From positions 62,001 to 126,000 of IMG/VR virus record IMGVR_UViG_3300020057_000029: DNA of 64,000 nucleotides; one strand, 5' to 3'. Positions within the stretch are counted from its first letter, which is position 1. Every line of letters begins with the position of its first letter. Of this stretch, positions 3,464 to 62,547 are shown piece after piece. The notes beneath the pieces were generated by a model. It worked only from the letters and a program-made list of their open reading frames with translations. It made no database searches and had not been told where the DNA came from. This stretch comes from a virus. The position numbers and the translations under genes are program-made.

Positions 3464-4036
3464 TCAGGACTTTCTGTACATTTCAAACAAAGACAGGCGC
3501 TTACGCTTTTGAGCCGTAATCCCAACAGGGGCAAGCAGTTTTTCGTATTTTTGAACTATTTCCCAGGCTTTATCCTCCGTCAAGCCAATCTCTTCGGAAG
3601 CTTCGATTTCCAAGAAACTCTGGATCTTGCCAGCTTCATCCAATACTGAATAGTATACAATATTGGCGTCATCAAAGAAATAGATATCAAACATCTTATA
3701 AACTGAGAAATTGCGCTTGTATCCAAGGCCTTCACAGAATGCAGCAACAGTGTCATCGCTATTAAGATCGATACGAAGGTTTACCTCAATACGAATCATG
3801 TTGTTTTTGTCGGTGCTTTTCTTCTTAAAGGTAAGCTCTGCACGCTTATCATCAGAATTCACCATGGGCTTACGATGTCTTAGAAAGTCGTCGCCCTCTT
3901 TGATGTAGTAGATATCAAACCCTTCGCCGTACAGAAATCTGGTCGGATTAAGGGTTCCGGCTAGAGCTTTGAATTTAAGCCGGTCAATATCGTCCGCATC
4001 ATACTTGGTTTCAATCTCAAGAAATTTTTGTTCCAT
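3464..4036 (-). CDS. CYTH-domain protein (triphosphate tunnel metalloenzyme)
   Basis: A 190-residue protein with the CYTH hallmark ExExK near the N-terminus (Glu7-Ile-Glu9-Thr-Lys11) and further alternating charged strands expected to line the tunnel: AELTFKKK, IRIEVNLRI and FLEIEAS. CYTH enzymes hydrolyse or cyclise phosphoanhydrides (thiamine triphosphatase, inorganic triphosphatase, class IV adenylate cyclase) with divalent metal. Its length fits a single-domain member. It overlaps the upstream gene by 1 nt. The substrate is unknown; nucleotide or signalling-molecule hydrolysis is possible. Confidence 0.75.
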   Translation of the reverse strand: MEQKFLEIETKYDADDIDRLKFKALAGTLNPTRFLYGEGFDIYYIKEGDDFLRHRKPMVNSDDKRAELTFKKKSTDKNNMIRIEVNLRIDLNSDDTVAAFCEGLGYKRNFSVYKMFDIYFFDDANIVYYSVLDEAGKIQSFLEIEASEEIGLTEDKAWEIVQKYEKLLAPVGITAQKRKRLSLFEMYRKS

Positions 4037-4536
4037 TACATGTCCTTCTTCTTTGCTTCTTCCGATGATTCCTGAATCAGATACGCCTCAAAACGGGCGT
4101 CAAATGATCTTCCAGTCTCGTGTAGATCTATAAGCTTATTCAGATCCACTCCAGATTCGATCTCTTTTTCAAAATGACGCTTGATGTAGTGATCTTCAAT
4201 CTTAGTGAAATCAGACAAAAGCTGATTTTCAATGTTTTGTTTTTGTTCTAAAAACTCCAAATGGTCTATCATTTCTTGACTTGCCATTAGCTTTGAGCCA
4301 GCAATATAACCACAAACCCTGCACATATTTACCTGGCCTATGCTGGTTTGAAGCAAAAGAACCTTCATCCATTGGTGAGGTTGTTTGCAGAGATCTTTTT
4401 CTTTCACGGTATCCAGGCTAAGATTTGACCTATGCTTGCGAAAATCCTTAAATGTCAAATATGCATTGAACGCTACTATAGACAGGACAAGGCCAGCAAA
4501 TATACCAAACATTAGAATTTCAGTCAGCACGCTCAT
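4036..4536 (-). CDS. membrane-anchored protein with Cys motif
   Basis: A 166-residue protein. Residues 5-29 (TEILMFGIFAGLVLSIVAFNAYL) form one N-terminal membrane helix, followed by a basic stretch, so the remainder is predicted to be cytoplasmic. A possible zinc site is made by C50, H54 and MCRVC (72-76). The C-terminal half is charged and helical. The start overlaps the stop of the HNH-ClpP gene (ATGA). The function is not recognised. Confidence 0.55.
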   Translation of the reverse strand: MSVLTEILMFGIFAGLVLSIVAFNAYLTFKDFRKHRSNLSLDTVKEKDLCKQPHQWMKVLLLQTSIGQVNMCRVCGYIAGSKLMASQEMIDHLEFLEQKQNIENQLLSDFTKIEDHYIKRHFEKEIESGVDLNKLIDLHETGRSFDARFEAYLIQESSEEAKKKDM

Positions 4537-5519
4537 TCTTCTCCTAACACCTTATCTGCCAAGCCATAAGACAGAATATCTTTTTGCCACAAAACCGTAT
4601 CTTTTAAACACATAGACTGCCAGAAACTTGTTGGTTTGCCTGTGGCCTTGGAATAAATTTCATACAGTAACTGCCTCGATTTCTTAGAGGTTTCACCCCA
4701 AGCTTCAAAAGATTTGGCCTCTCCTTCGAAACCTTCAGTACCATCGTGCAATACAAATACGCAGTTTTCGGTAATCTCTCTAAGCTTGCCAGCCTGAAAA
4801 ATTGCAGTAGCGGTACTGCCCACTAGACCTGTTCCGATCATTCTGGTAGGACACGGACTGCTAGCAATTCTGTCATATATAGCAAGGCCGTCAAACCAGT
4901 TACCGCCATTGCTCATAATTTTTATGGTGATTTCGGCGTGTTTACTAATCGCTTCTAATATATCAAACGCCTTTTGTACTTGAAGAGATAGTTTTTCATT
5001 GATTTCTCCAAAAATACACACAGTCCTGGAATCAACATGGTAATTTTCTTCATGAAACTGCCCTATGGCCGACATCCTGTGTTCTTTAATTGCATGTATT
5101 GCTGTTATGGTTTCTGCTACTGTTAACTTGTCACCTCTGATAGAACTGCACGTAGCACAACAGGGCACTACGTTTTCTTTTTTATAGCCAACTGATCTAT
5201 CGTTAGAGATTCTATCCAGTCCAGCTCCGCTTATGGGCAATGATCCACCACAATAAAAACATGGCTGCGATCTGAACACAGAATACTCTTCTTTGGTCAT
5301 ATTCCACACGATTTTGCGTTCTTTGGCTTCCCCTTTTGCCGCATTAAATTGATGTGTTATAGTGCTAAGGATTTTTTGTCTGTATTGTCTAGTTTTTTCT
5401 TTAGATACGGGGTTTTCTTTTATATAGCAAGACCTACATTTAGGGCCGCTATAGTTCACGCGCAAGCCGGAGCCACAAGAAATGCATAGTTTTTCTTTAT
5501 TGACAATAGCTTTCATCAT
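4533..5519 (-). CDS. HNH endonuclease domain fused to a ClpP-like serine peptidase
   Basis: One continuous 328-residue frame with two unrelated parts. Residues 10-31 carry a Cys pair module (CISC..CRSC), and residues 87-130 an HNH-type core (CFYCGG, GLDRISND, GY, NVVPCCATC) like those of phage HNH homing endonucleases. Residues 165-326 follow the ClpP fold: FGEI strand, GNWFDGLAIYD, nucleophile Ser235 in GLVGSTATAIFQAG, His258 in VLHDG, and a likely Asp307 before the closing YGLADKV. All three triad positions are present. The HNH half shares its Y.GPKC..CY start with the free-standing HNH gene at 51050-51685, so an endonuclease ORF may have fused to a ClpP gene. An internal Met149 could initiate ClpP alone, but its ribosome site is weak. 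Confidence 0.8.
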   Translation of the reverse strand: MMKAIVNKEKLCISCGSGLRVNYSGPKCRSCYIKENPVSKEKTRQYRQKILSTITHQFNAAKGEAKERKIVWNMTKEEYSVFRSQPCFYCGGSLPISGAGLDRISNDRSVGYKKENVVPCCATCSSIRGDKLTVAETITAIHAIKEHRMSAIGQFHEENYHVDSRTVCIFGEINEKLSLQVQKAFDILEAISKHAEITIKIMSNGGNWFDGLAIYDRIASSPCPTRMIGTGLVGSTATAIFQAGKLREITENCVFVLHDGTEGFEGEAKSFEAWGETSKKSRQLLYEIYSKATGKPTSFWQSMCLKDTVLWQKDILSYGLADKVLGEE

Positions 5520-6382
5520 TTGGTAACCCTGCTGTGTACGTGATTAAAGGCGCTGGAAATTGCAGTAAGCCATTCTTTCTCTTTAAAATCTGAGTCTTCT
5601 GAATAATAACCATTCAGTATTTCTATCGTACCATCTTCTGAATAGCCTGCCAAGGCAAATTCGTAAGCAATAGCATACCACTGCCCATTACGGCCTTTTT
5701 GGGGGTCCAACCCTTCGGTTAGACGTTTAATCACCCAAGGCGCTAAGCGGTTGAAATCAAAAGTGCCGGAAGCGACCTTCTTTATACGGGGTTTGGGCTT
5801 CTGTTCTGGGTGTAGCTCAAGCCATGTTCTAAGCTCAGAGAAGGTAACAGCACCCTTGTAACGGGCCAAAACCTGTCTGGACTTGTCACGTATCGGACCT
5901 GGTATACGAATGCTCCTAGAAGGATTCTTGGTCATTTGGTCTGCTGCTGTACACACTCCTAAGATCCATTCTGACAACAAACGCCAAGTCTTTTGGTCGG
6001 GTAAGTCACGGTCTAAGGAGATAAGGAAGTGTAGTGATTTGCCGCCAGAGAATATCGCAGCAGAATAGGGCATTCTCAACCGTTCGATATAGGCTAATTG
6101 TTGGGGAAGGGGGCCTACGTCCATCTCGATCAGGAAGTTTCTGAAAGCAGTACAGTTGTTATCCTGGCGAAATCCACGGATAGGATTTAGGGCCACCAGT
6201 TGCATCTCAATAGAAGGCTTTTGAGCAATTGGCCATTTAGCATCAGTGGGAACCAGGGTAACTGTATCGGACATGGCCATTTCCAAGGGAATAGAGTGAT
6301 ACCCAAATTGATTTGGAGAGACACAGACGGTTTCGCCTGGCCTGAACATCAGCTCAAATATCCTCTTTCCAGTGGGGTCCAT
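5516..6382 (-). CDS. archaeo-eukaryotic-type primase (AEP superfamily)
   Basis: A 288-residue protein with AEP-like signatures: the metal-binding acidic pair Glu86-x-Asp88 in FLIEMDVG, the SGGKSLHFLI motif (Ser112 to His118), and a third motif region ending in NPSRSIRIPG (154-162). The remainder (200-288) is a helical C-terminal domain of the kind that follows phage primases. It would make primers for the DnaE polymerase with the DnaB-like helicase encoded 1.3 kb further on. No DnaG-type primase is seen in the window. A stop/start ATGA overlap links it to the HNH-ClpP gene. Confidence 0.75.
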   Translation of the reverse strand: MDPTGKRIFELMFRPGETVCVSPNQFGYHSIPLEMAMSDTVTLVPTDAKWPIAQKPSIEMQLVALNPIRGFRQDNNCTAFRNFLIEMDVGPLPQQLAYIERLRMPYSAAIFSGGKSLHFLISLDRDLPDQKTWRLLSEWILGVCTAADQMTKNPSRSIRIPGPIRDKSRQVLARYKGAVTFSELRTWLELHPEQKPKPRIKKVASGTFDFNRLAPWVIKRLTEGLDPQKGRNGQWYAIAYEFALAGYSEDGTIEILNGYYSEDSDFKEKEWLTAISSAFNHVHSRVTK

Positions 6383-23063: not shown

Positions 23064-23257
23064 TTTTTATCCATACAGTCTTTGCGGGCATATCTTTGAC
23101 ACACATCTTGCCCAGTATCGCTGTCCTCATAGCATACCATGATAGCTTGACGCCTACAACGCTCTTCCTTGTTTATCTCTGGGGTCAAAGGAACTGGCTT
23201 GACAATCTCAACAGGTGAGCATGATGTAAAAAGCAGGATTGTGAGCAAGTATTTCAT
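23060..23257 (-). CDS. small lipoprotein (possible o-spanin)
   Basis: A 65-residue protein with a signal peptide and lipobox: MKYLLTILLFTSC, lipidated on Cys13, then a Pro-containing SPVEIVKPVPLTPEIN stretch and a charged Cys-rich tail. Size, lipobox and prolines resemble Rz1-type outer-membrane spanin subunits, though a partner with a periplasmic coiled coil was not found next to it. It could also be an entry-exclusion lipoprotein. Confidence 0.6.
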   Translation of the reverse strand: MKYLLTILLFTSCSPVEIVKPVPLTPEINKEERCRRQAIMVCYEDSDTGQDVCQRYARKDCMDKK

Positions 23258-32786: not shown

Positions 32787-33773
32787 TTAGTATCCCTTGA
32801 TAATCTTGCGTTCGGTCTTATTGCTGATGCTTTCTTTAACCTTCTGATTGATCTCGAACAATTGTTCAGAAGTCAATCTAGGCTTAACTGGTTCAGAGTT
32901 GTAATTACCAAACCAACCTTCTTTTTCAGATTTCTTCTCTTCTTTGGTATTGATATCTTTAAAGAGAGCTTCGCCATCAACCAGAACCTTGTATCTCAAA
33001 GCGTTGGTGTTAACTGGACAATTATCTTGCTCGGCAACGATTTGAACAGCCCTTCCCATATAGAAGAATTCAGCCAAAAGCTCATTGCGTGTACCTTCAA
33101 GGGATCTGTCACAAGAAGCAGTAACAACCCTATCAGCAAGACCTTGATCTACACAGTCTTGACCATCACACCAGTATTCATTCTCGATCAAATCGCGGTA
33201 CGATTTTAGGGTTAGTTTTCCACCAGAACGGCTTACAGCAACTTCGTCCATGCGAGTAACGCGTTTTAGGTAGTAATTATATCGACTGTCCAATTGACCA
33301 GGGAATTCACCAGAAAATCCACCACGGGCCTTATGACTCATGAGGGTACCGTTTTTTAGAACAAGACGATCACCAAGACCTTGAGCGGTTTGAAAGCCCA
33401 TGGAAGCGGAGAACACGTTGATACTGTGTACGGGACGGTTCATGCTCGAAAGGTTCTCGATAAGCTCAAGACCAGCATCAATTGAGCCACCTGGGCTGTT
33501 GATTACGAGGTACAGAGGGTCACCAGAAGGCAATCGGGCATCCATAGCTTTAGCGGCTAGGGTTAGCTGGGCTACAACTTCAGAGTCAAATACGTTGTTG
33601 ATAGTAATACTATTGTCCTTGGTAAGAATAATAGCGCCTGGGGATGCAGAAACAGAAGCGGAGCTTTTGGCCTCGCTTGAGCTCTGAGCAGATGTCTTGC
33701 CAGAAGATTCCGCTGCAAACGAAACATTTCCTAGCAATGCAAAAACCAATACGAGTCCAATTAGATTCTTCAT
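32787..33773 (-). CDS. exported ClpP/SppA-like serine protease
   Basis: A 328-residue protein with a signal peptide (MKNLIGLVLVFALLGNVSFA, cleavage before AESS), a Ser-rich linker (residues 21-48) and a ClpP-fold domain: VINSPGGSIDAGLEL, nucleophile region FSASMGFQTAQG (Ser124), and His147 in LMSHKARGG, ending near QGLADRVV. C-terminal residues 220-328 form an extra region rich in Lys/Glu. It should be periplasmic or membrane-associated, unlike cytosolic ClpP. The target is unknown; lysis, exclusion or cell-envelope degradation are possible. Confidence 0.8.
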   Translation of the reverse strand: MKNLIGLVLVFALLGNVSFAAESSGKTSAQSSSEAKSSASVSASPGAIILTKDNSITINNVFDSEVVAQLTLAAKAMDARLPSGDPLYLVINSPGGSIDAGLELIENLSSMNRPVHSINVFSASMGFQTAQGLGDRLVLKNGTLMSHKARGGFSGEFPGQLDSRYNYYLKRVTRMDEVAVSRSGGKLTLKSYRDLIENEYWCDGQDCVDQGLADRVVTASCDRSLEGTRNELLAEFFYMGRAVQIVAEQDNCPVNTNALRYKVLVDGEALFKDINTKEEKKSEKEGWFGNYNSEPVKPRLTSEQLFEINQKVKESISNKTERKIIKGY

Positions 33774-40184: not shown

Positions 40185-41618
40185 ATGAGCAAAAGGACAG
40201 ACATACAGATAATTAGACAGTATGTAGAGAAAAGAGGGTTTTCTCTATTGTCCAATTCTTACAAAAACAGAAAATCTGATCTTGATCTGCACTGCCCTGT
40301 TCATGGTAATTTTACCTCTACTTATAGCAACATCATACGGACCAGTATATGTCCCAAATGCGGCTATAGTTTTGGTGGTAACAAACAATCTCTGTCTCTG
40401 GAACACGTCAGGTTAGAAATAGTCAAAATGGGCTATGTCCCATTGTTTGACTCCTACAAAAGGGCCAAAGACAAACTGGAGATATCGTGTTCTTCCCATG
40501 GCAAATTCTTTGCAAGCTACGACGGCTTAAAACAAGGCAAAAGATGTCCAAAATGCAGTCTTATTTCTAAGACAAAAAACAACAGACTTGACATAGAAGA
40601 AGTAAAAAATAGAATAACAAAAGCTGGCTATTTGCCAAAATTTGAGTCTTACAGCGATTCTCAGTCGCTATTAAGCGTTGTGTGCCCTGTTCATGGCCCT
40701 TTCAAGGCGTCTTTAGAGAGATTTATGTATGGATACGGATGTCAAAAATGCTCTAAGGGAAGATCCAAATCTCAAGACGAGATGTTTGATTTTATACACA
40801 GTCTGAATGCAGACACTAAAGAAAATGTCAGAGACGTTATCGGCCCACTAGAGCTAGATGTCTATACGCCGTGCCTGAATTTGGCCATAGAATACTGTGG
40901 ACTTTATTGGCATTCCGATCTGTATAAAAATAGAAATTATCATTTCGACAAAATGACAATGACCAATACTGTAAATATTCGTCTCATAACAATTTTTGAA
41001 GATGAGTGGTTAGAACGCAAAGATCAGGTAAAAGGATTTCTTCGATCTGTATTGAAAAAGAATAATAGAAAAATCTTTGCTAGAAAAACAAACCTTAAGC
41101 AAGTAGGAAAAGCAGAAGCTTGTAAGTTTCTTGAAGAAAATCATATTCAAGGGTCTTGCGGTCTAGAAGTCGCTTTTGGCTTGTACTGTAGGGATGAGCT
41201 TGTAGGCGTAGTCACTGGCAACAGGCATCACAGGAATATTAAAGCAAATCAGCTAGTGCTCAACAGACTAGCCTTTAAATCAGGCATTAGCGTGACCGGT
41301 GGTTCTTCCAAGCTTTTGAGAGCCCTAATGGAATACTCTAAAAACAATGATTATTCCAAAATAGTTTCTTGGTCTGATAACAGATGGTCCGAAGGCAATG
41401 TTTATAAAAAGCTAGGTTTTGAGTTAGAAGAAGAGTTAGCGCCAGACTATAGCTACGTGAAAAAATCAAAAAGAGTGTCTAAGCAGTCTATGACCAAGAA
41501 CAAGTTGATTGAGCGGGGTGCCATTGGTAATACTGAAAGAGAAATGGCTATCAATCTAGGCTATGGCAGAATTTGGGATTGTGGAAAGAAAAGGTGGGCT
41601 TTAAAGTTAAAAAGATGA
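40185..41618 (+). CDS. Vsr-like homing endonuclease (EDxHD type), intact copy 1
   Basis: A 477-residue protein. The N-terminal part has three CPxHG..CPKC-type zinc repeats (about residues 37-59, 102-124, 167-189), likely DNA-reading modules. Residues 195-290 form the Vsr-like nuclease (LELDVYTP, AIEYCGLYWH, FEDEW). The C-terminal 180 residues (FLEENHIQGS to LGYGRIWDCGKKRW) are shared with the gene at 57746 and with a remnant at 42631. Free-standing endonucleases of this group are known beside split inteins. It is inserted between groEL and terminase. Confidence 0.8.
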   Translation: MSKRTDIQIIRQYVEKRGFSLLSNSYKNRKSDLDLHCPVHGNFTSTYSNIIRTSICPKCGYSFGGNKQSLSLEHVRLEIVKMGYVPLFDSYKRAKDKLEISCSSHGKFFASYDGLKQGKRCPKCSLISKTKNNRLDIEEVKNRITKAGYLPKFESYSDSQSLLSVVCPVHGPFKASLERFMYGYGCQKCSKGRSKSQDEMFDFIHSLNADTKENVRDVIGPLELDVYTPCLNLAIEYCGLYWHSDLYKNRNYHFDKMTMTNTVNIRLITIFEDEWLERKDQVKGFLRSVLKKNNRKIFARKTNLKQVGKAEACKFLEENHIQGSCGLEVAFGLYCRDELVGVVTGNRHHRNIKANQLVLNRLAFKSGISVTGGSSKLLRALMEYSKNNDYSKIVSWSDNRWSEGNVYKKLGFELEEELAPDYSYVKKSKRVSKQSMTKNKLIERGAIGNTEREMAINLGYGRIWDCGKKRWALKLKR

Positions 41619-41779: not shown

Positions 41780-42589
41780 ATGATCAATTTTAAAGACTTA
41801 CCTCCTGAAGAGAAAAAAGCCTTAGCGGAAGAAATGTTCAAACCTCTTGAGTCAGCTGACAAACTAAGAGAATGGATCGTATTCTTCTTTGGTCTTGACA
41901 TGCCAATTGGACATATTGATCCAGATTCGAATTCCAGTCCAATTGAGGCAATGTGGGAGATCTACTCCTGTATTAAAGAAAATAAAGGTGAAGATAATCC
42001 TGGTTACATCATGCTTTCGGCGCGGGAAGGTTATAAAACGCTTTCTGCCTCCATTCTAGAAACCCTTCTTTTGGTACATTTCAGACTAACCATCGCTCAC
42101 CTGGCAGCGATTCAGGCCCAGTCTGCTAAGGCTATTCAGTATATCAATTTCTTTTTCAACAAAATCCAACCTCTTTTGGAAGTATCGGGTTGGTCTAAAA
42201 CCAGTGAAAACAAGAGTAAGGTAAGCTTTCGTACAAAAGAAGGCGATGACGCTTACATTCGCGTAATTGTGGCCACGATGGCTGGCGCTAACTGTATAGA
42301 TCCTGCTATGGTGCTTGATACAGACAGGGGCAATATTTCCGCTCAAGAAGTATATGATTTGGTCAGAAACAATGAATGCGTAATGGTCCTGTCTTTTAAC
42401 CATAAAACAAATGAGTTGGAATATAAAGAAGTCACCCACACATTCGACTCTATCAAAACTTTAGTCACGATAGAATTAGAAAATGGGTCAATTATCAAAT
42501 GTTCTCCTGAACACAGGTTTTACATAGAAGGCAAGGGCTATATGGAGGCCAAGGATTTGACTGAAGAGGATTATTTAAGTGTCAAATAG
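41780..42589 (+). CDS. terminase large subunit, N-terminal half fused to split-intein N part
   Basis: A 269-residue protein. Residues 1-171 are the ATPase start (Walker A-like SAREGYKT, residues 80-87; RVIVATMAGAN). At Cys172 a split intein begins: CIDPAMVLDTDRG (block A) and GSIIKCSPEHRF (block B with SPEH), 98 residues ending DLTEEDYLSVK. The host sequence stops exactly before the Walker B that begins the other half. Protein trans-splicing with the product at 42762-44228 would restore TerL. Confidence 0.88.
   Translation: MINFKDLPPEEKKALAEEMFKPLESADKLREWIVFFFGLDMPIGHIDPDSNSSPIEAMWEIYSCIKENKGEDNPGYIMLSAREGYKTLSASILETLLLVHFRLTIAHLAAIQAQSAKAIQYINFFFNKIQPLLEVSGWSKTSENKSKVSFRTKEGDDAYIRVIVATMAGANCIDPAMVLDTDRGNISAQEVYDLVRNNECVMVLSFNHKTNELEYKEVTHTFDSIKTLVTIELENGSIIKCSPEHRFYIEGKGYMEAKDLTEEDYLSVK
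42293..42586 (+). mobile_element. split intein, N-terminal part (IntN)
   Basis: 98 residues from Cys1 (codon at 42293) to a stop at 42587. Blocks A and B are intact. It has no endonuclease domain; the gap to IntC contains the remnant of a Vsr-like endonuclease. Confidence 0.85.
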
Positions 42590-42630: not shown

Positions 42631-42765
42631 GCAAAACAGTCTTGTAAGAAAAAGAGCTTGCTGATCAAAGGCGCTACAGGAAACACAGGGACAGAGATGG
42701 CCTTATCTTTAGGGTATGACCGCATCTGGGACTGTGGAAAAATAAGATGGGAGATTTTCTTGTGA
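42631..42765 (+). pseudogene. remnant of Vsr-like homing endonuclease between intein halves
   Basis: One frame reads KQSCKKKSLLIKGATGNTG and then MALSLGYDRIWDCGKIRWE before a stop, matching the last 45 residues of the intact endonucleases (for example KQSCTKENLLKKGAIGN and MALSLGYSRIWDCGKKRW at 57746-59449). The rest of the gene is gone. Its stop TGA overlaps the GTG start of the terminase C half (GTGA), which shows the ancestral order IntN, endonuclease, IntC. Confidence 0.88.
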
Positions 42766-42875
42766 AAAAAGTAAAGATAAAAAGTATTAAAAGGTCAAAC
42801 GTAGAGGTTCCAATGTTGGACTTTACCGTTGCTGATAACCACAACTACTTTGTGGAGCAGGCGCTTACTCACAAT
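42762..42875 (+). mobile_element. split intein, C-terminal part (IntC)
   Basis: 38 residues ending in Thr-His-Asn, followed by extein Ser at 42876. Length and motifs match known split-intein C parts such as gp41-1 and DnaE types. Confidence 0.85.
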
Positions 42876-44228
42876 TCTGAGCATACAAACATGATGTTCG
42901 TAGACGAAATCGACGTGGTGGCAAATCCTCAAGCCTATGAAGAGGCTAAGCTCATTCCTGGTTATGCTAAGGGATTACATCCGGTTACCGTGAAGCTATC
43001 TACTCGTAAATTTGCATTTGGACTCATGCAGAAGGAACTTGACCTGGCTCCAATATCAGGTGATAAGATTCTTAGGTGGAATCTTTTAGATGTTACGGAG
43101 CGTTGCCCTGATAGTCGCCATAGGCCAAATGAGCCAAAAGAAGACCGGTATGTAGCAAAAGCCTTGCCTCTAAAACAGATGAGTGTAGAAGACTACTCAG
43201 ATCTACAAGATGTGGAAAAGGACAAGTTCGACCTCATTCCGCAAGCCCATGCTGGATGCTCCAGTTGCAAACTCTTGCCGGTATGCAAGACCAGGCTAGC
43301 AGCTCGTCCAGCCAATGATGTTGGCGGCTTGTTTAAGCCCGTAGGCGCTGTGATTAACACTTTTAAGAAGACCGGCCCTGATCGCGCAGAGGCACAGCTT
43401 CTTTGCTGGAAGCCATCCACTAAAGGAATGGTGTACCCTCGCTTTGAGTCCACACTCGATACCGGCAACGTGATCAGTCTTGAAAAAGCCTGGGAAACCC
43501 TTGTTGGTGATCCTCCTCATAAAAAGAAGATTTCAGAAGCCGATCTTCTTTGGAAGATGCAGCAGCTTGGAATTGCATTCTACGCTGGAGTGGACTGGGG
43601 TTATACTCACGATTTCGTAATCGTTGTTTTTGCCATAATCCCTAATGGTGAAATATGGATTGTAGACTGTTATTCAATGGCCGGTCTAGAATTTTCTGAC
43701 ATCTTGGAAATCGCTAAAGACTATCGCGATAAGTACCGTATGGATAAATGGTGGTGTGACCAGGCTATGCCTGCGAATATCAAATCTTTTAACAAGAACC
43801 ATATGAAATCTCCTTCTTTCACCAAAGATGTTATGGGTGGAATTGAATCTTTGCGTTCTAAGATCTTAGATGGTAACAGCAGGCGTTTGCTTAAGGTTTT
43901 TAATACGGAAAACTGTGAAAAAGTAATTACAGCCTTTCAAAAACACCATTTCAAGCTAGACAGTGCGGGTAACCCTTCTCTTATCCCAGATGATACCCCT
44001 GGGGTCGCAGATAGCGCCGATGCTATGCGTTACGTTGGCCAAAACATGTTTCCTATCCGTGGACCCCAGAAACCCAGTATGGCCGCTGACGCTACTGGGA
44101 ATACTGCTGTAATGGTTCAGAATGTCGAAAATTCCGAGCTGATGAAGCAGGAGCTATTAAACAGGTTAGAGGGAACAGCTTTTAAGGGCGGGACGGGCAA
44201 AAAAGGTGGGTTTCATTTTAACTTCTGA
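42762..44228 (+). CDS. split-intein C part fused to terminase large subunit C-terminal half
   Basis: The GTG at 42762 has GGAG 8 nt upstream and overlaps the remnant stop; an ATG at 42747 is the alternative. Residues 1-38 are IntC (VPMLDFTVADNHNYFVEQALTHN split over block F and G, with terminal His-Asn), then Ser+1. The extein has Walker B MMFVDEID at once, then the RNase H-fold nuclease (AGVDWGYTHDF, WWCDQA, DSADAMRY). With the N half it forms the packaging motor. Confidence 0.88.
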   Translation: MKKVKIKSIKRSNVEVPMLDFTVADNHNYFVEQALTHNSEHTNMMFVDEIDVVANPQAYEEAKLIPGYAKGLHPVTVKLSTRKFAFGLMQKELDLAPISGDKILRWNLLDVTERCPDSRHRPNEPKEDRYVAKALPLKQMSVEDYSDLQDVEKDKFDLIPQAHAGCSSCKLLPVCKTRLAARPANDVGGLFKPVGAVINTFKKTGPDRAEAQLLCWKPSTKGMVYPRFESTLDTGNVISLEKAWETLVGDPPHKKKISEADLLWKMQQLGIAFYAGVDWGYTHDFVIVVFAIIPNGEIWIVDCYSMAGLEFSDILEIAKDYRDKYRMDKWWCDQAMPANIKSFNKNHMKSPSFTKDVMGGIESLRSKILDGNSRRLLKVFNTENCEKVITAFQKHHFKLDSAGNPSLIPDDTPGVADSADAMRYVGQNMFPIRGPQKPSMAADATGNTAVMVQNVENSELMKQELLNRLEGTAFKGGTGKKGGFHFNF

Positions 44229-49850: not shown

Positions 49851-51053
49851 TTATTCGTAATCACGGATTGCTTTAGCTACAGGAAATCTTGGGCGGCGAT
49901 TGATTCCGAAGCCCTGGTACACTACAGTCATCTGCTTACCTTGCCACAGTGAATGGTTTTCAAAACATTGTTTCAAAAAGCCAGTATCACCTTCTAGCTT
50001 AGCTTTAAAGTCCACACCTTCTTTGGTTAGGCAATTAAAAGCACCTACATGCCCATTGAGCTTGCCGCTGCCTTCTTCGATGCCAATGATCTTGAATTCG
50101 TCTTCATTGAATTCTTTGAGTTTTTGAAGATCCATGGAACGCTTTGGTACGTACAAAGCGTTCATGTTACGAATCATAGCTCCTTCGTAGCCTTGTTTAC
50201 GCATAGTATAGAAGAATTCCAGATCAGCTTCAACGCCGTCTGCCACTGTAAAAGTTTGTACAGGTACCAATGGAACCTGGAATGGGACTGTCGAGGCTAA
50301 AGTCGCAATGCGCTGGTTTGCTGGCTGATCGTTGATGATATCGTACACATGATAGTGAACCAACTTCGACTCTTCGCTAGGTTCATCTTTGCGAACAGCG
50401 CTTACGATTTTCTCGAAATCATTCTTGTACATGTGATTGTAAAGCTCGCCATCTAAAACAATGTCGCTTTTCACGTTAGCTTCGATTGTAGCAACGATAT
50501 GAGGAACAGACTTGATAGGTTTACGAGTACGCGACCACAGGGTACATTTGCCGTCCTTAACGATAGCAATGCAGCGAATACCGTCAAACTTTGGCTGCAT
50601 GAGAGCAGGAAACTTGATCTTTTTCGACTCTTTAGTGCGAGTGATAATTGGAGGATCGTTTTCATGACCTGGGCGCATGTCATATAAAACATCCAGATAG
50701 CTTTGGGCCAACATAGGAAGAGCGCCACCTTCAATAAGCTCATCTAGTTCGCCAGCCTGAGCTGCTTCCAAGGATTCAACGTAGCCTTTTTTGCGTTGTT
50801 TTTCATGTTTTGCTTGAGCTTCAGCTTCAGCTTGCTGTACAGCAGTGGTTTCATTCTTTTTACCTATATTTTTACCCTCTTTTACATAATCTACAGTTTT
50901 CTGTGGACTGTCAGTATTCAGTTGGCCATATTCAGTTAAAATTTCACCTACAGAGTCTTTATTTCTATCGTGCCATTCCTCTGTCACCTTGATCTTCCAG
51001 TACTGAATCGCACCAGTGTTTGTTTTCTTATAAAGAGTGGTAAAAGTTTTCAT
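49851..51053 (-). CDS. ATP-dependent DNA ligase
   Basis: A 400-residue ligase. The nucleotidyl-transfer motif I is MQPKFDGIRC (Lys155), with WSRTRKPIKS, VLDGELYN (III), GYEGAMIRN (IV) and LQKLKEF (V), followed by an OB-like end. Residues 1-55 (IQYWKIKVTEE..GEILTEYGQ) look like a WGR-type domain followed by a charged linker. It seals Okazaki fragments and repair nicks, completing the replication set of the left arm. Confidence 0.85.
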   Translation of the reverse strand: MKTFTTLYKKTNTGAIQYWKIKVTEEWHDRNKDSVGEILTEYGQLNTDSPQKTVDYVKEGKNIGKKNETTAVQQAEAEAQAKHEKQRKKGYVESLEAAQAGELDELIEGGALPMLAQSYLDVLYDMRPGHENDPPIITRTKESKKIKFPALMQPKFDGIRCIAIVKDGKCTLWSRTRKPIKSVPHIVATIEANVKSDIVLDGELYNHMYKNDFEKIVSAVRKDEPSEESKLVHYHVYDIINDQPANQRIATLASTVPFQVPLVPVQTFTVADGVEADLEFFYTMRKQGYEGAMIRNMNALYVPKRSMDLQKLKEFNEDEFKIIGIEEGSGKLNGHVGAFNCLTKEGVDFKAKLEGDTGFLKQCFENHSLWQGKQMTVVYQGFGINRRPRFPVAKAIRDYE

Positions 51054-51685
51054 TTCTTGCTTCTATCCCTTTGTGTTTTCTTATAATGATCTTCTTTCCA
51101 TAATGGCTGAATATTTGTAAAATTGCAAGCTATTTTCAAATCTTCTTCTTTTGTCAAATCAAAATTCAATAATGCTATTCTATGGTCTAGCTCCCATTCT
51201 TTTCCGTAGTTATCCCAGGTCATCTCTGGTTGAAACTGATTGTAAATATAATTCTTGAATTCTTCTATTGAGCACCCTAGATATTTAATACCAACACCGG
51301 TCTTGTAATTACCCCTCATAGCCATTTTAAACCTAGACCTAACTCGTGTTTTAAGCAAAAAACCAATATCAGTCCTGATTCTTATAGCGTCTCTGGCTAC
51401 TTGATTTTTTATAATTTCTCTCTTATTTTTTTCATAATAATCTTTTCTTATCAATAGGATAGACTCTTTATTAGTCTGATAATACTTTTTAGCATTTTCC
51501 AGTATTTCTTTTTTCTTATTTTTGTAGCGTAAGCGAGCATTACTTCTCTTTTTCTCAGGGTTTTGAGAAGCCAATATCAAGTTTTTGTTTTTGACATACC
51601 TATCTGATGCATAGCACTTGGTACATTTAGGACCGGAGTACCATTTTGGGGCTTCTGTGACTTTGCAAATTATACATTGTTTCAT
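51050..51685 (-). CDS. HNH homing endonuclease, free-standing
   Basis: A 211-residue protein from the ATG at 51685; the upstream extension runs through the next gene and was discarded. It begins with a zinc module (CIIC..GPKCTKCY), continues with a basic helix, and ends with the HNH core (WELDHRIALLNFDLTKEEDL, then NIQPLWKEDH). It overlaps the ligase start, where HNH elements often lodge. The Cys module is shared with the HNH-ClpP fusion at 4533-5519. Confidence 0.8.
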   Translation of the reverse strand: MKQCIICKVTEAPKWYSGPKCTKCYASDRYVKNKNLILASQNPEKKRSNARLRYKNKKKEILENAKKYYQTNKESILLIRKDYYEKNKREIIKNQVARDAIRIRTDIGFLLKTRVRSRFKMAMRGNYKTGVGIKYLGCSIEEFKNYIYNQFQPEMTWDNYGKEWELDHRIALLNFDLTKEEDLKIACNFTNIQPLWKEDHYKKTQRDRSKK

Positions 51686-51737
51686 ACAGTATAGATTACC
51701 ATTCTTCTGCTTTTCCCTCAATATAAAAAGCAAAAAG

Positions 51738-52061
51738 TCAATCTCTAGGTTTGTACATTCTACAGAAAAACATGTGAAGATCAGGTGCGCTTGTATGTTT
51801 AGCTCCACATTGGCATCCGTAGAAGCTGTTGTTATTCAGTAGAACGTCCAAGTCAACCGGGCTTTCCCATGGAAAAGCTGATCCTTTACCCTGTTCTACG
51901 AAGTGAACCTCGTAATTAATCATGTATTCGTCACTTTTTTCATAGGCCATCTGTTTGTAAACGCGGTTAAGCATACGAATTAACTTGGGAAATTCCCGAA
52001 TGGTTTTTGGCCATTCAACTAGGCTTTCCCCTGCATGTTGGAAAATAAGGCGAATTCTCAT
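51738..52061 (-). CDS. hypothetical protein with Cys cluster
   Basis: A 107-residue protein with CQCGAKH and a later Cys, possibly zinc-binding. It is the first minus-strand gene of this pocket; the -10-like TATACAAT (minus) is 12 nt before the ATG and is divergent from the endolysin promoter. The function is unknown. Confidence 0.5.
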   Translation of the reverse strand: MRIRLIFQHAGESLVEWPKTIREFPKLIRMLNRVYKQMAYEKSDEYMINYEVHFVEQGKGSAFPWESPVDLDVLLNNNSFYGCQCGAKHTSAPDLHMFFCRMYKPRD

Positions 52062-52765: not shown

Positions 52766-54784
52766 TTATTTTTTTTCAGACTTTTCCATGGTTTTAGGCC
52801 TATCGAACTCTTTTAGTTCGTGAACGTGTCTTGGGTGTAATACGGCATCATCGTGTTCATTAATACCAAACTTAACATGTTTTCCAGAAAGGATTTTTCC
52901 ATGTTGTTTGTTTGGCAAATGATGCATTTCGCCGGTTGGTTTTTTGGCAAAATATTCACCACCACGAGAGATCACCTTGCCCGTATGAGGGTGCTCGGAA
53001 TCGATTTTTTCAGACTTTTCCATGGTTTTAGGCTTTTTGTAACATTCCTTATCTTCGCCAGTCATCATTGCATCAGAAAATTTCTTGAGCTCTTTTTCGG
53101 CTTCAACGCTTTTTTTCAAAATCATAGTTTTGCCAAAAGAGTCTATTTCGCTTTTGGTCATGTTGGGCATTCGCTTCTTCATAAATTCTTGAAACTGTTC
53201 ACGCTTGTCCCATTTAGAATATTCTTCTTCTGCGCGAATTAACCACTCGGACTTTGTTAGGTTGGGCTTCATTTGTCTGATGCGCTTCAAATTCTTATGA
53301 GCAATTTCTTTGGCTGTATAAACGGTCTCGGAAGCAGCGCCATGACGAACCTTCTGGCCCATGTGGGACATTCCCATGCCAGCTTTTAGGCCAGGGCTCA
53401 TTTTATTACCAGCTACCTTGTCGGATAGAGGTTTGTTAACATTATCCGTTTTCTTCATACTGCCCTTGCCGAACGGCGAACCGATTGCAGCATTAATTGT
53501 CGAAGTGCCGTTCGAGGTAGCGGTATTGCCTAGGCTCTGAGGAGGAGGAGGAGGCGGTGGTGGTGGCGCATCTACTTTGTGCATTTTTTTGTCGAGATGC
53601 TCTTTGGCGAGCGCAGCGCCGTCTGTTAACGCACCAGGCGAGCTCATTCCAGAACCTGCGGTCATCGCTTTTTCCATCTTTTGTTCGCCAGAATCATTTT
53701 TTGGCTGTTTTTGCACATTAGCAGATGGGTTCATTGCTTTACCCAATAGCTTTTTGCGCTTATCAGCCATTCCGGCCTCAAAACGATCATCTTTACGAGC
53801 AGATGTATGAGCGGCTTGTAAGTGAAGCTTCATGCGGTCAAGATGATGAGCTCCAGCTTTATGATCTTTGGTACCCTGAGAATGCTCAAAATGCATTTTA
53901 GCAGCTTCTTCATGATCTTTGGTAGAAAAACCACGATATTCGTGGATGCGCTGATGACTCATCACGTCTTTGCCTGAGCTAGTGCGACCCATGGTGTGAC
54001 CAGGATCTCTAAAAGGTGTTTTGCCAAAGGTCTTTGCGCTGGCCTTTGGGGTGCCAATTGAAGCATTGGGTTTCTCGATACCTGCAGCAGATTTGTCAAC
54101 TGAAGCTGGAGCTTGTGATGTCATTTCTTTTTTCATGGGGGTGATTCCTAGCTTATTAGCATGATGATTCGGGTCTTCTGCCTTTTTTACATCGGCGAAA
54201 ACATCGGACTTAAGAAGTTCAATTTCTGCGTAAGGTACTGTTTTAAAAGACTGTTCTGATTTAAAAAAATCGGCGATATTATCGACTTTTTTAGTTTTTT
54301 CGGGCATTTCGGGCATTTTTTCAGCTATAGCCATTTTGTTACAATGGGACTCTGTTATGGTACATTTACGAGCAATAGATCTTGTAATTGTCATACCTTT
54401 TTTATCAAGCTTTGCGCCTTCAATAGAGAAACCAACTACATTGTGTTCGTTAATACCTCTTTTCTCAGCATCGTATTGAAAAAGACCGGCTACGTGCAGA
54501 CCAGACTCTGTATGGGTAAAGAGCTCACCCATAACGTAAACGTAGGGAACCTTGCATTTGTTCCAAAAATAGCGGTGTCTTTCGTTATCACAGTCTTCTA
54601 ACTTAAAGATTTTCTTAGCTTTTAAGATCTTTCCAATAATTTGCATTGGGTAGTCTTTTTTATGCTCCCAATTGAAATTTCCGGTTTTGTCTAACGAGGA
54701 GATATCCATTCCTGCTACGGAAATGATTTCGCCAGAAGAGTCTATGTTTTCAGAAGCTGCTATTCCGTCAATTAGGGTGGACAT
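52766..54784 (-). CDS. prohead protease with long C-terminal scaffold-like region
   Basis: A 672-residue protein. Residues 1-150 match the S78/U9-type prohead protease pattern: GIAASENIDSSGEIISVAG, His41 in NWEHKK, and Ser120 in VVGFSIEGAKL. The rest is low-complexity Lys/Gly/Met-rich with a run of nine prolines near residue 410 and several KSE/KSD motifs, so it probably acts as internal scaffold and is self-cleaved. It is on the opposite strand to the other head genes. Confidence 0.72.
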   Translation of the reverse strand: MSTLIDGIAASENIDSSGEIISVAGMDISSLDKTGNFNWEHKKDYPMQIIGKILKAKKIFKLEDCDNERHRYFWNKCKVPYVYVMGELFTHTESGLHVAGLFQYDAEKRGINEHNVVGFSIEGAKLDKKGMTITRSIARKCTITESHCNKMAIAEKMPEMPEKTKKVDNIADFFKSEQSFKTVPYAEIELLKSDVFADVKKAEDPNHHANKLGITPMKKEMTSQAPASVDKSAAGIEKPNASIGTPKASAKTFGKTPFRDPGHTMGRTSSGKDVMSHQRIHEYRGFSTKDHEEAAKMHFEHSQGTKDHKAGAHHLDRMKLHLQAAHTSARKDDRFEAGMADKRKKLLGKAMNPSANVQKQPKNDSGEQKMEKAMTAGSGMSSPGALTDGAALAKEHLDKKMHKVDAPPPPPPPPPQSLGNTATSNGTSTINAAIGSPFGKGSMKKTDNVNKPLSDKVAGNKMSPGLKAGMGMSHMGQKVRHGAASETVYTAKEIAHKNLKRIRQMKPNLTKSEWLIRAEEEYSKWDKREQFQEFMKKRMPNMTKSEIDSFGKTMILKKSVEAEKELKKFSDAMMTGEDKECYKKPKTMEKSEKIDSEHPHTGKVISRGGEYFAKKPTGEMHHLPNKQHGKILSGKHVKFGINEHDDAVLHPRHVHELKEFDRPKTMEKSEKK

Positions 54785-57745: not shown

Positions 57746-59449
57746 ATGAAGGATAAAATATCAGAACTGTATAAAAAAGGTGTGAAAACATCAGATATAG
57801 CCATGGTTCTAAGGAAAACGCCTCAAAGAATTAATCAAGTGCTGATAGAGCTTGGCTTAAAGCAAAAAACGTTTGACTATTCGCCAAAAATAACTGCTAT
57901 CATTGCTGAAAGCATTCTTGCTTTTAATAGAGATGGTCTGACCGTAACTGAAATATCAAAAAGGGTTGATCTAACAACCACTGGAATCAGAAATTTTCTT
58001 AAAAAACGTAGTATTTCAACAAACGCATCCAAAGAAGACAGGTCTAGGCCTTGTGTTGTTTGTAAATTAGTGTTCACTCCGAAACACTCAGATGGGGTGA
58101 AAAAAAACAAATACAAGACTTGCTCTGTCGAATGTCGCTCTAAGCACGCTAGTGAATACAGAACGAAATATACAAAAGATGATATCGATAAGGTTTTAGA
58201 GCTAAAAAAGGCCAATACTGCCAATGATGAGATTTGCCTGGCAACAGGGGTAAATATAAATAAGATCAAAGAGGTGATCAAAGAAAATGCCTTGTTTTTG
58301 GACCCAAAAGTGGCTCAAAAGAATGCTTATGAAGCTAAGCTAAAAAAGAATACTCGTTCTATGGAAGAGATGCGAGCTTATTACGGAAAAATAGCCGTAT
58401 CAGAAGAAAGTCTTGAAAAAACAAAAACAATTCTTTTGGAAAGGGGTTTTGAATATATAGATGGTTTTGAGGGCAAAAGCAATCCTTTTAAAATCAAATG
58501 TCTAGTCTGCAATAATATCAGAACTACACATAGGATAAACAATGTGGTCAAAAACGCCTGTATGTTCTGTTCTGGATGTAAAAAAACTTCCAAAGCCGAA
58601 ATAGAAATTGGGGCATGGGTAAACTCTTTAAAGATAAAGGCTGAAAAATTCAAGTTTGAATACCGAAAAGATGGTGGCGAAATAGATGTTTTTGTTCCCC
58701 TTGTAAAGGTGGGAATAGAATACTGTGGTCTTTATTGGCATAACGAAAATAGCCCAACCTCAAGAGGGGTGGATTATCATTTCAACAAAATGAAAAAGGC
58801 TAACAAAGAAGGTATTCGCCTAATAACCATTTTCGAAGACGAATGGCTCAATAAAAAAGATCAAATTAAAGGATTTTTACGATCTGTTCTTAATAAAAAT
58901 GAAATAAGGCTTTTTGCCAGAAAAACAGATTTGAGAGAGGTGCCTAAAAAAGAGGCCTCTCTTTTCTTAGAGGAAAATCATATCCAGGGTTCTTCTCAAA
59001 TCGAATCGGCTTTTGGCCTTTATTACAACGAAGAGCTTGTTGGTATTGTAACTGGCAACAAACATCACAGACAGGGAATGAAAAATCAATTCATACTGAA
59101 TCGATTGGCCTTTAAAACAAACGTAAGTGTGGCTGGTGGTTCGTCTCGGCTTCTTAAGGCGCTAATTGGTTATGCTAAAAAGAATGGCTATTTAAAACTA
59201 GTCTCGTGGTCAGACAATAGGTGGTCCGAAGGTAATGTTTACGAAAAACTAGGGTTTGTATTGGAAGAAACCCTTGGCCCAGACTATTCTTACGTAGTTG
59301 GCCAAAAAAGAATCTCCAAGCAATCTTGTACCAAGGAAAACTTGCTCAAAAAAGGAGCCATTGGTAACACAGAAAAAGAAATGGCCCTCAGTTTAGGATA
59401 TAGCAGAATATGGGATTGTGGCAAAAAACGCTGGACCTTCGCCTTGTAG
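57746..59449 (+). CDS. Vsr-like homing endonuclease (EDxHD type), intact copy 2
   Basis: A 567-residue protein with N-terminal helix-turn-helix segments (residues 1-40 and 60-95), a Cys zinc module (about 102-135), the Vsr-like nuclease (GGEIDVFVP, GIEYCGLYWH, FEDEWLNKK; residues 290-370), and the C-terminal 180 residues shared with copy 1. Two proteins of this size with different N-termini but a common nuclease/C-terminus suggest swapped DNA-recognition parts. It lies after a terminator, between capsid and phosphoesterase genes. Confidence 0.8.
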   Translation: MKDKISELYKKGVKTSDIAMVLRKTPQRINQVLIELGLKQKTFDYSPKITAIIAESILAFNRDGLTVTEISKRVDLTTTGIRNFLKKRSISTNASKEDRSRPCVVCKLVFTPKHSDGVKKNKYKTCSVECRSKHASEYRTKYTKDDIDKVLELKKANTANDEICLATGVNINKIKEVIKENALFLDPKVAQKNAYEAKLKKNTRSMEEMRAYYGKIAVSEESLEKTKTILLERGFEYIDGFEGKSNPFKIKCLVCNNIRTTHRINNVVKNACMFCSGCKKTSKAEIEIGAWVNSLKIKAEKFKFEYRKDGGEIDVFVPLVKVGIEYCGLYWHNENSPTSRGVDYHFNKMKKANKEGIRLITIFEDEWLNKKDQIKGFLRSVLNKNEIRLFARKTDLREVPKKEASLFLEENHIQGSSQIESAFGLYYNEELVGIVTGNKHHRQGMKNQFILNRLAFKTNVSVAGGSSRLLKALIGYAKKNGYLKLVSWSDNRWSEGNVYEKLGFVLEETLGPDYSYVVGQKRISKQSCTKENLLKKGAIGNTEKEMALSLGYSRIWDCGKKRWTFAL

Positions 59450-61719: not shown

Positions 61720-62547
61720 ATGTTTTTCCCTCAAAGTAAATCTCCACAAACCGCAATATACCCAGTTCACTGCAAAGAGGCTTCTGGATTATTGCGCCGT
61801 TGCGAACCCTTTTTGACTCCAACCCAATTGAAGAATCGGTTTTTGCTGGGCATTCCCTTAAAATTCGCCAACGACGATGTCTTAACGGACGAGATCCTAA
61901 AAGACCGTATTCATTTGGCAATGAACGAAGTAGAGCTTCTTTTGAATATTACCATTACCAGAGAAGCCTTTCAAGACAAGCTTCCTTTTGACTATCAGCT
62001 CTACAAAGCGTATATTAATCTAGTGTCAGAAAAAGGACCAATTATTAGTATTGAAAGTCTTGCTATCACAAGCGCTGACTTCAATAATATTTTCACAATT
62101 CCACCTGATTGGATCGAAACTTCAAATTTTTCAAAACGTCTTGTTAACGTGATCCCTCTATTGGCTGCCTATGGCGTAAACACCGTTCAGGGTGCAGTCG
62201 GAAATGCCGGTATAGCTTTTTTGGCCGTGATGGGTGGTTTGAGCTGGGTTCCTGCTTATTGGCAAATCAATTATACCGCAGGTCTTTCTAACAAAGAAGG
62301 TCAGGTGCCAGTACCAGTAAACGAGCTTATTGGGGTAGTAGCTGCTCTAAACACCCTTAGTCTTATCGCGCCTTCAAATATCTATAATAGCCAATCGCTA
62401 TCTCAAGATGGCATCTCACAGTCTTCGTCTGGTCTTGGACCTCGTTTGTACGAACTGAGAATTTCTGAACTTGAGAGAAAAAAAGAAGAGCTAACCAGAA
62501 AGCTCAAGGCTATCTTTTTCAGCAGGATAATATTCGGGAACATATAA
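61720..62547 (+). CDS. probable neck / head-completion protein
   Basis: A 275-residue protein with helical ends and a beta centre (TIPPDWIETSNFSKRLVNVIPLLAAYG, GGLSWVPAYWQINYTAGL). The tail is a charged helix (ELERKKEELTRKLKAIF). The start is at the first base after the upstream stop. Structural by position; family not recognised. Confidence 0.45.
   Translation: MFFPQSKSPQTAIYPVHCKEASGLLRRCEPFLTPTQLKNRFLLGIPLKFANDDVLTDEILKDRIHLAMNEVELLLNITITREAFQDKLPFDYQLYKAYINLVSEKGPIISIESLAITSADFNNIFTIPPDWIETSNFSKRLVNVIPLLAAYGVNTVQGAVGNAGIAFLAVMGGLSWVPAYWQINYTAGLSNKEGQVPVPVNELIGVVAALNTLSLIAPSNIYNSQSLSQDGISQSSSGLGPRLYELRISELERKKEELTRKLKAIFFSRIIFGNI

Follow-up and report, generated by a model that had tools for sequence, protein, structure and literature searches.

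We describe here a gene encoding a PacI-like HNH domain and a complete ClpP peptidase in a single reading frame, in a 64,000-nucleotide stretch of virus DNA (IMG/VR record IMGVR_UViG_3300020057_000029, positions 62,001 to 126,000; hereafter the window). The features discussed are listed in Table 1. We consider it probable, on comparative sequence grounds, that this is a composite mobile gene, in which a homing-type nuclease of the PacI-like HNH type and a ClpP are moved or inherited as a unit. This interpretation is based on the single frame, the occurrence of the same architecture in four phages, the grouping of each half of the four proteins in one clade, the four different neighbourhoods of the genes and the primase-adjacent slot filled by the window copy. 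No HNH-ClpP fusion was found in the literature searched, and the architecture is new as far as these searches reach.

Table 1. Fusion gene, neighbouring and related genes (window coordinates), and fusions found in other phages
Feature	Coordinates	Strand	Residues	Remarks
HNH-ClpP fusion ORF	4533..5519	(-)	328 aa	ATG start, no internal stop
N-terminal zinc module (CxxC...CxxC)	5427..5486	(-)	12-31	Cys12, 15, 28 and 31 in 4/4 fusions; shared with 51050 gene
PacI-like HNH domain	5076..5366	(-)	about 52-148	Cys87, 90, 121, 124; Asp102, Arg103, Asn116; PHROG matches, PacI profile, model
Codon 125 (metal-ligand position)	5145..5147	(-)	125	Ser; Asn in the family
HNH/ClpP junction	5025..5090	(-)	about 144-165	HNH end abuts ClpP start
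ClpP domain	4542..5036	(-)	162-326	PF00574; structure match
Ser235 codon (nucleophile)	4815..4817	(-)	235	Alignment with ClpP
His258 codon	4746..4748	(-)	258	Alignment with ClpP
Asp307 codon	4599..4601	(-)	307	Alignment with ClpP; Glu in G053 fusion
Primase-like gene	5516..6382	(-)		PHROG 2597 DNA primase, E 1.3e-18; overlaps fusion start by 4 bases (ATGA)
Next gene	4036..4536	(-)		4-base overlap with fusion stop; in G013, homologue comes after ClpP
Conserved downstream gene	3464..4036	(-)		Homologues adjoin ClpP in G013, G017, G021 and G003
Separate HNH-type gene with shared Cys module	51050..51808	(-)		Overlaps by 4 bases the start of a DNA-ligase-like gene (by eye), 49851-51053 (-)
L291				HNH-ClpP fusion in G051, 154,801-base record
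L292				HNH-ClpP fusion in G052, 160,612-base record
L293				HNH-ClpP fusion in G053, 13,059-base record

The N-terminal part of the fusion protein (about residues 1-148), which includes the zinc module and the HNH domain, matched two PHROG families of HNH/endonuclease VII-like proteins (PHROG 3118, residues 45-160, E 7.8e-11; PHROG 1035, residues 10-148, E 1.9e-10). The HNH domain was modelled alone from 50 sequences (pLDDT 86.7), and the structure comparison, covering residues 53-149, gave PacI as the best match (Z 9.8, 97 residues, 2.3 Å), the next row reaching only Z 5.7. A profile search with this domain also found PacI (E 1e-10), and the model has the beta-beta-alpha-metal fold of PacI-like HNH nucleases. 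All four fusions have two CxxC/CxxC zinc modules (Cys12/15/28/31 and Cys87/90/121/124). However, the catalytic metal-binding Asn following the last CxxC is replaced with Ser125 in the window and G051 proteins, and is retained in the G052 and G053 proteins. This position is occupied by Asn in at least 90% of 50 aligned HNH domains, and, among the matches listed (75 readable of 80 loci), the window's twin and the G051 fusion were alone in having Ser125. In PacI, the metal-binding Asn is N113, and the equivalent DraIII substitution, N202A, abolishes activity (PMC3996161, in excerpt); the equivalent N62D form of Endo VII is also inactive (PMC6083498, in excerpt). By analogy with these two mutants, the HNH of the window copy is probably impaired or inactive as a nuclease, and two of the four fusions may have an inactive HNH half. 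Given the replacement of the metal-binding Asn, we class the window copy by its fold only, as PacI-like, and do not file it as an active PacI-type nuclease.

The fusions do not belong to the DHHRN family, which includes Endo VII and F-CphI: they have Arg103 in all four cases and lack a His at the position of Endo VII H41, a residue kept in all 313 sequences of the DHHRN study (PMC6083498, in excerpt). The possibility of a domain degenerate due to the replacement of Asp-His with Asp-Arg was rejected: the Arg is family-wide and PacI also has an Asp-Arg pair, and Arg103 does not therefore point to decay. A search of the phage for Pfam PF02945 (Endo VII) gave no matches, and neither did the controls. 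Relatives of the HNH occur as separate genes in many phages, and homing-type HNH genes occupy several slots of the window phage genome. The original prediction tied the fusion to the HNH gene at 51050 through its Cys modules; the two do share an N-terminal Cys module, YSGPKCxxCY (BLASTP E 0.001; none of 5000 shuffles as good), but the resemblance is confined to it. With their 4-base overlap, the 51050 gene and its ligase-like neighbour themselves come close to forming a further fusion.

The C-terminal half was identified as a ClpP by Pfam PF00574 (E 4.7e-26, 92.2 bits against a cut-off of 20.2), and the ClpP profile alignment begins at residue 146. Ser235, His258 and Asp307 align with the active-site positions of the ClpPs of Myxococcus phage Mx1 and Listeria, which upholds the intact triad initially proposed. 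The Ser and His residues are kept in all four fusions and the Asp residue in three, with a Glu in G053. The full-length model, built from four sequences, had a mean pLDDT of 71 and a pTM of 0.56, with low values at the junction (below 50 for residues 147-153). Its comparison with solved structures covered the ClpP part only, and the best match was Listeria ClpP1 (Z 25.3, 165 residues, 2.1 Å). A bacterial N-terminal pattern that we defined ourselves, GERxxDI, was found in 27 of 80 genome loci and in none of 80 viral loci. A role as a ClpP-type head maturation protease was rejected, because the fusion adjoins the primase, outside the head module containing the portal and capsid genes. A separate protease-like gene (52766-54784) matches the putative prohead protease of Mx1 (36% over 191 aa). 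The window also contains a second ClpP (32787-33773 (-)), with an N-terminus resembling a signal peptide by eye, and similar long ClpPs are found in many relatives.

A scan with the HNH half (best 80 of 153 confirmed loci) recovered the window's twin and three further HNH-ClpP proteins, from G051, G052 and G053; the fusion thus recurs in other phages. No fifth fusion was found among the best 80 of 182 loci in a scan with the four aligned fusions, and only four distinct proteins had both domains in one frame over 459 loci (four large Mx1 pieces excluded). A further candidate, L393, was rejected because it consists of an HNH only. The only fusion recovered by scans with ClpP patterns was the window's twin, among the best 80 of 487 viral loci, with none in the best 80 of 216 genome loci, and none of 50,697 phage and 72,556 plasmid records covered 80% of the fusion protein. 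The four fusions align with no indels at the junction. Their pairwise identities are 44-55% in the HNH half and 35-64% in the ClpP half, and all eight zinc Cys residues, Asp102, Arg103, Asn116, Ser235 and His258 are invariant. In all six fusion pairs, codon position 3 differs the most in both halves, the pattern that purifying selection on both would produce. The capsid protein family of the window phage also occurs in G051 and G052, and was not seen in G053, a fragment. The G053 fusion (L373 4878-5963 (+)) has two tandem CxxC...CxxC modules ahead of the HNH, and the G052 fusion (L371 4704-5969 (+)) is extended at its N-terminus by a segment that matches PHROG 20046.

In the ClpP phylogeny (50 rows, several of them long), the four fusions formed one clade (98 bootstrap, 91 SH-aLRT). 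They also formed one clade in the HNH phylogeny (79 rows, few columns), with moderate support (SH-aLRT 88); their sister in this tree, a ClpP-free HNH protein (L295), is unsure (support 51). The grouping of the four fusions by both halves, strong for ClpP and moderate for HNH, suggests that the fusion most likely arose once. The original prediction was that a homing endonuclease had been captured where the local ClpP gene begins. The ClpP tree contradicts this, since the window ClpP groups with those of the three other fusions, and forcing it to group with the core primase-locus ClpPs of the relatives costs 118 log units (AU test, p 7e-8; the core clade tested was named after the tree was seen). 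Since the ClpP half is not that of the residents, an already fused gene would have replaced the resident ClpP. Taken together, the primase-locus ClpPs do not form a single clade, with seven changes on the ClpP tree, and ClpP swapping at this slot may therefore occur without any nuclease.

The window and Mx1 share a core, in largely the same order, according to a BLAST comparison of the window frames: polymerase, single-strand binding protein, RecA-like protein, terminase, portal (48%) and capsid (54%). Relatives in IMG/VR were collected by capsid (40 loci) and by portal protein (34 loci). ClpP was found in 25 of the 50 records searched from this set; of its 38 matches, 30 were examined as loci. 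A primase homologue lies beside ClpP in 11 of these 30 loci: one is the window's twin, and the ClpP is free of HNH in the other 10. The fusion is thus absent from this locus in all 10 relatives with the primase-ClpP pair, and present in three other phages, two of them with the same capsid family. In Mx1, ClpP also directly follows the primase-helicase, without an HNH. In G013, the primase, ClpP and next gene have the same 4-base overlaps at both ends, if ClpP starts at an inner Met, indicating that the fusion in the window fills exactly the slot of a resident ClpP. The product of the conserved downstream gene, presumably CYTH-like, had no Pfam family at E 1 or better.

Outside the window, the fusions have other neighbourhoods. 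The G051 gene is near the major capsid protein, with another ClpP downstream; that of G052 lies in an insertion of about 10 kb flanked by two baseplate/tail genes that are immediate neighbours in Mx1; and that of G053 is found with lysis genes (endolysin and spanin) and an acetyltransferase gene. No match to the primase was obtained in G051-G053, in a search that had no positive control, and no near-identical pair of genomes with and without the fusion gene was found. The differing positions of the fusion could also be due to rearrangement. Further stand-alone ClpPs in G051 (L458 1786-2511 (-)) and G052 (L463 8733-9380 (+)) adjoin homologues of the Mx1 genes at 23137 and 23551.

We suggest that a fusion event, most likely a single one, joined a PacI-like HNH to a cytosolic phage ClpP, and that the two have since been inherited or transferred as one unit. 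The HNH half would have provided mobility, by nicking or cutting DNA lacking the gene, with repair copying the donor, and the ClpP half would be a cargo able to replace a resident ClpP, as proposed above for the window phage. The product would probably be a single chain of about 36 kDa, translationally coupled to the primase, with the HNH domains placed at the N-terminal (axial) side of the ClpP ring. In the window phage, the replacement of Asn125 with Ser has probably deprived the HNH of much of its cutting ability, with its zinc sites kept, and the HNH may now serve chiefly as a DNA-binding appendage of the protease. The homing, DNA-tether and protease functions are all predictions from sequence.

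The main alternative, which we regard as possible but clearly less probable, is a working two-domain enzyme, in which the HNH tethers the ClpP protease to DNA and any mobility is incidental. The two halves have indeed been kept together in four divergent phages, with the zinc ligands, Asp102, Arg103 and Asn116 conserved even in the proteins with Ser125. The evidence from mutants points both ways: the inactive N62D form of Endo VII still binds DNA, whereas the Asn-to-Asp change at the same position in F-CphI, N118D, abolishes binding (PMC6083498, in excerpt). However, two of the four fusions keep the nuclease Asn, which would be needless in a pure tether, and the loci are unrelated, without a shared partner gene. 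Tethering and mobility might also be combined: the HNH would hold the ClpP ring on phage DNA, where it would destroy DNA-bound proteins, such as host defence or competing nucleases, and the same HNH would let the gene invade new phages. We consider such a DNA-anchored Clp-type protease on a mobile gene doubtful; if it were true, the gene would spread itself with a protease as its cargo.

It is unlikely that the fusion is accidental and gives rise to two independent products, through self-processing by ClpP or an internal start. The HNH domain ends naturally, and ClpP begins, within residues 144-152, and the junction, which is poorly modelled, is the least conserved stretch in five of the six fusion pairs and tied in the sixth. 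In bacteria, ClpP propeptides are self-cleaved. However, stop codons would have split a free association in some lineage. An internal start also appears unlikely: Met149 is the sole ATG close to the beginning of the ClpP and lacks a Shine-Dalgarno sequence (at -1.9 kcal/mol, its score is poorer than those of 91% of 57 gene starts and is equalled or exceeded by 60% of 409 internal ATGs), and there is no Met at this position in the other three fusions. Given this poor score and lack of conservation, a single polypeptide is the default. An assembly or frame artefact, conceivable because every sequence is metagenomic (all four fusions are from metagenome assemblies and none from isolates), is highly improbable: a second assembly, IMGVR_UViG_3300020195_000016, and the window have 11,519 bp in common, without a single mismatch, and three divergent, intact fusions in other metagenomes exclude a frameshift. 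The second assembly consists of two pieces (85,566 and 68,750 bases) with a sum close to the 155,223-base record holding the window; it is probably the same virus, and therefore excludes only an error of a single assembly.

Other genes of the window phage may also be composite or interrupted. Those at 40185-41618 (+) and 57746-59449 (+) are homing-endonuclease-like (PHROG 559/3339) with a C-terminal Mom/GNAT-like domain, and appear to be further nuclease-plus-enzyme composites. The terminase large subunit, intact in Mx1, is divided into two pieces (41780-42589 (+) and 42747-44228 (+)), apparently by a split intein: the upstream piece ends in Intein_splicing profile positions 4-94 (E 6e-8, below the family cut-off) and the downstream one begins with positions 121-155 (E 0.012). 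An Rfam search of the window gave no matches.

Homing nucleases are usually viewed as selfish genes carrying only themselves, whether within introns or inteins or free-standing. If a nuclease travels fused to a complete peptidase, and this union persists between highly divergent phages, the result would be a composite mobile gene with an enzyme cargo, which would provide phages with a route for exchanging one ClpP for another. As both Asn-bearing and Ser-bearing versions exist, the fusions also constitute a natural test of a DNA-linked ClpP.

The closest known relative of the HNH half is PacI (PDB 3ldy/3m7k), together with the PacI-like HNHs of Skunavirus phages. PacI has the same fold and the same D-R...N...CxxC-N motif as the HNH family of the fusion, and, like Hpy99I, it has an extra N-terminal CxxC/CxxC module, as does the fusion (PMC3996161, in excerpt). 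However, PacI is a free restriction enzyme, whereas the HNH is here fused to ClpP and has Ser at the PacI N113 position in the window copy. The ClpP half has the fold, triad and PF00574 domain of phage and bacterial ClpPs, with its N-terminus replaced by the HNH. Relatives occupy varied slots, as do free-standing homing endonucleases (T4 seg/mob, F-CphI), and the start of T4 mobE overlaps the upstream stop, like that of the fusion gene (PMC2988022, in excerpt). The fusion differs from these endonucleases in having a complete peptidase in the same chain, and homing is putative here. In Borg elements, a homing endonuclease is found beside ClpP as a separate gene (PMC11208441, in excerpt), whereas the two are fused in the phages described here.
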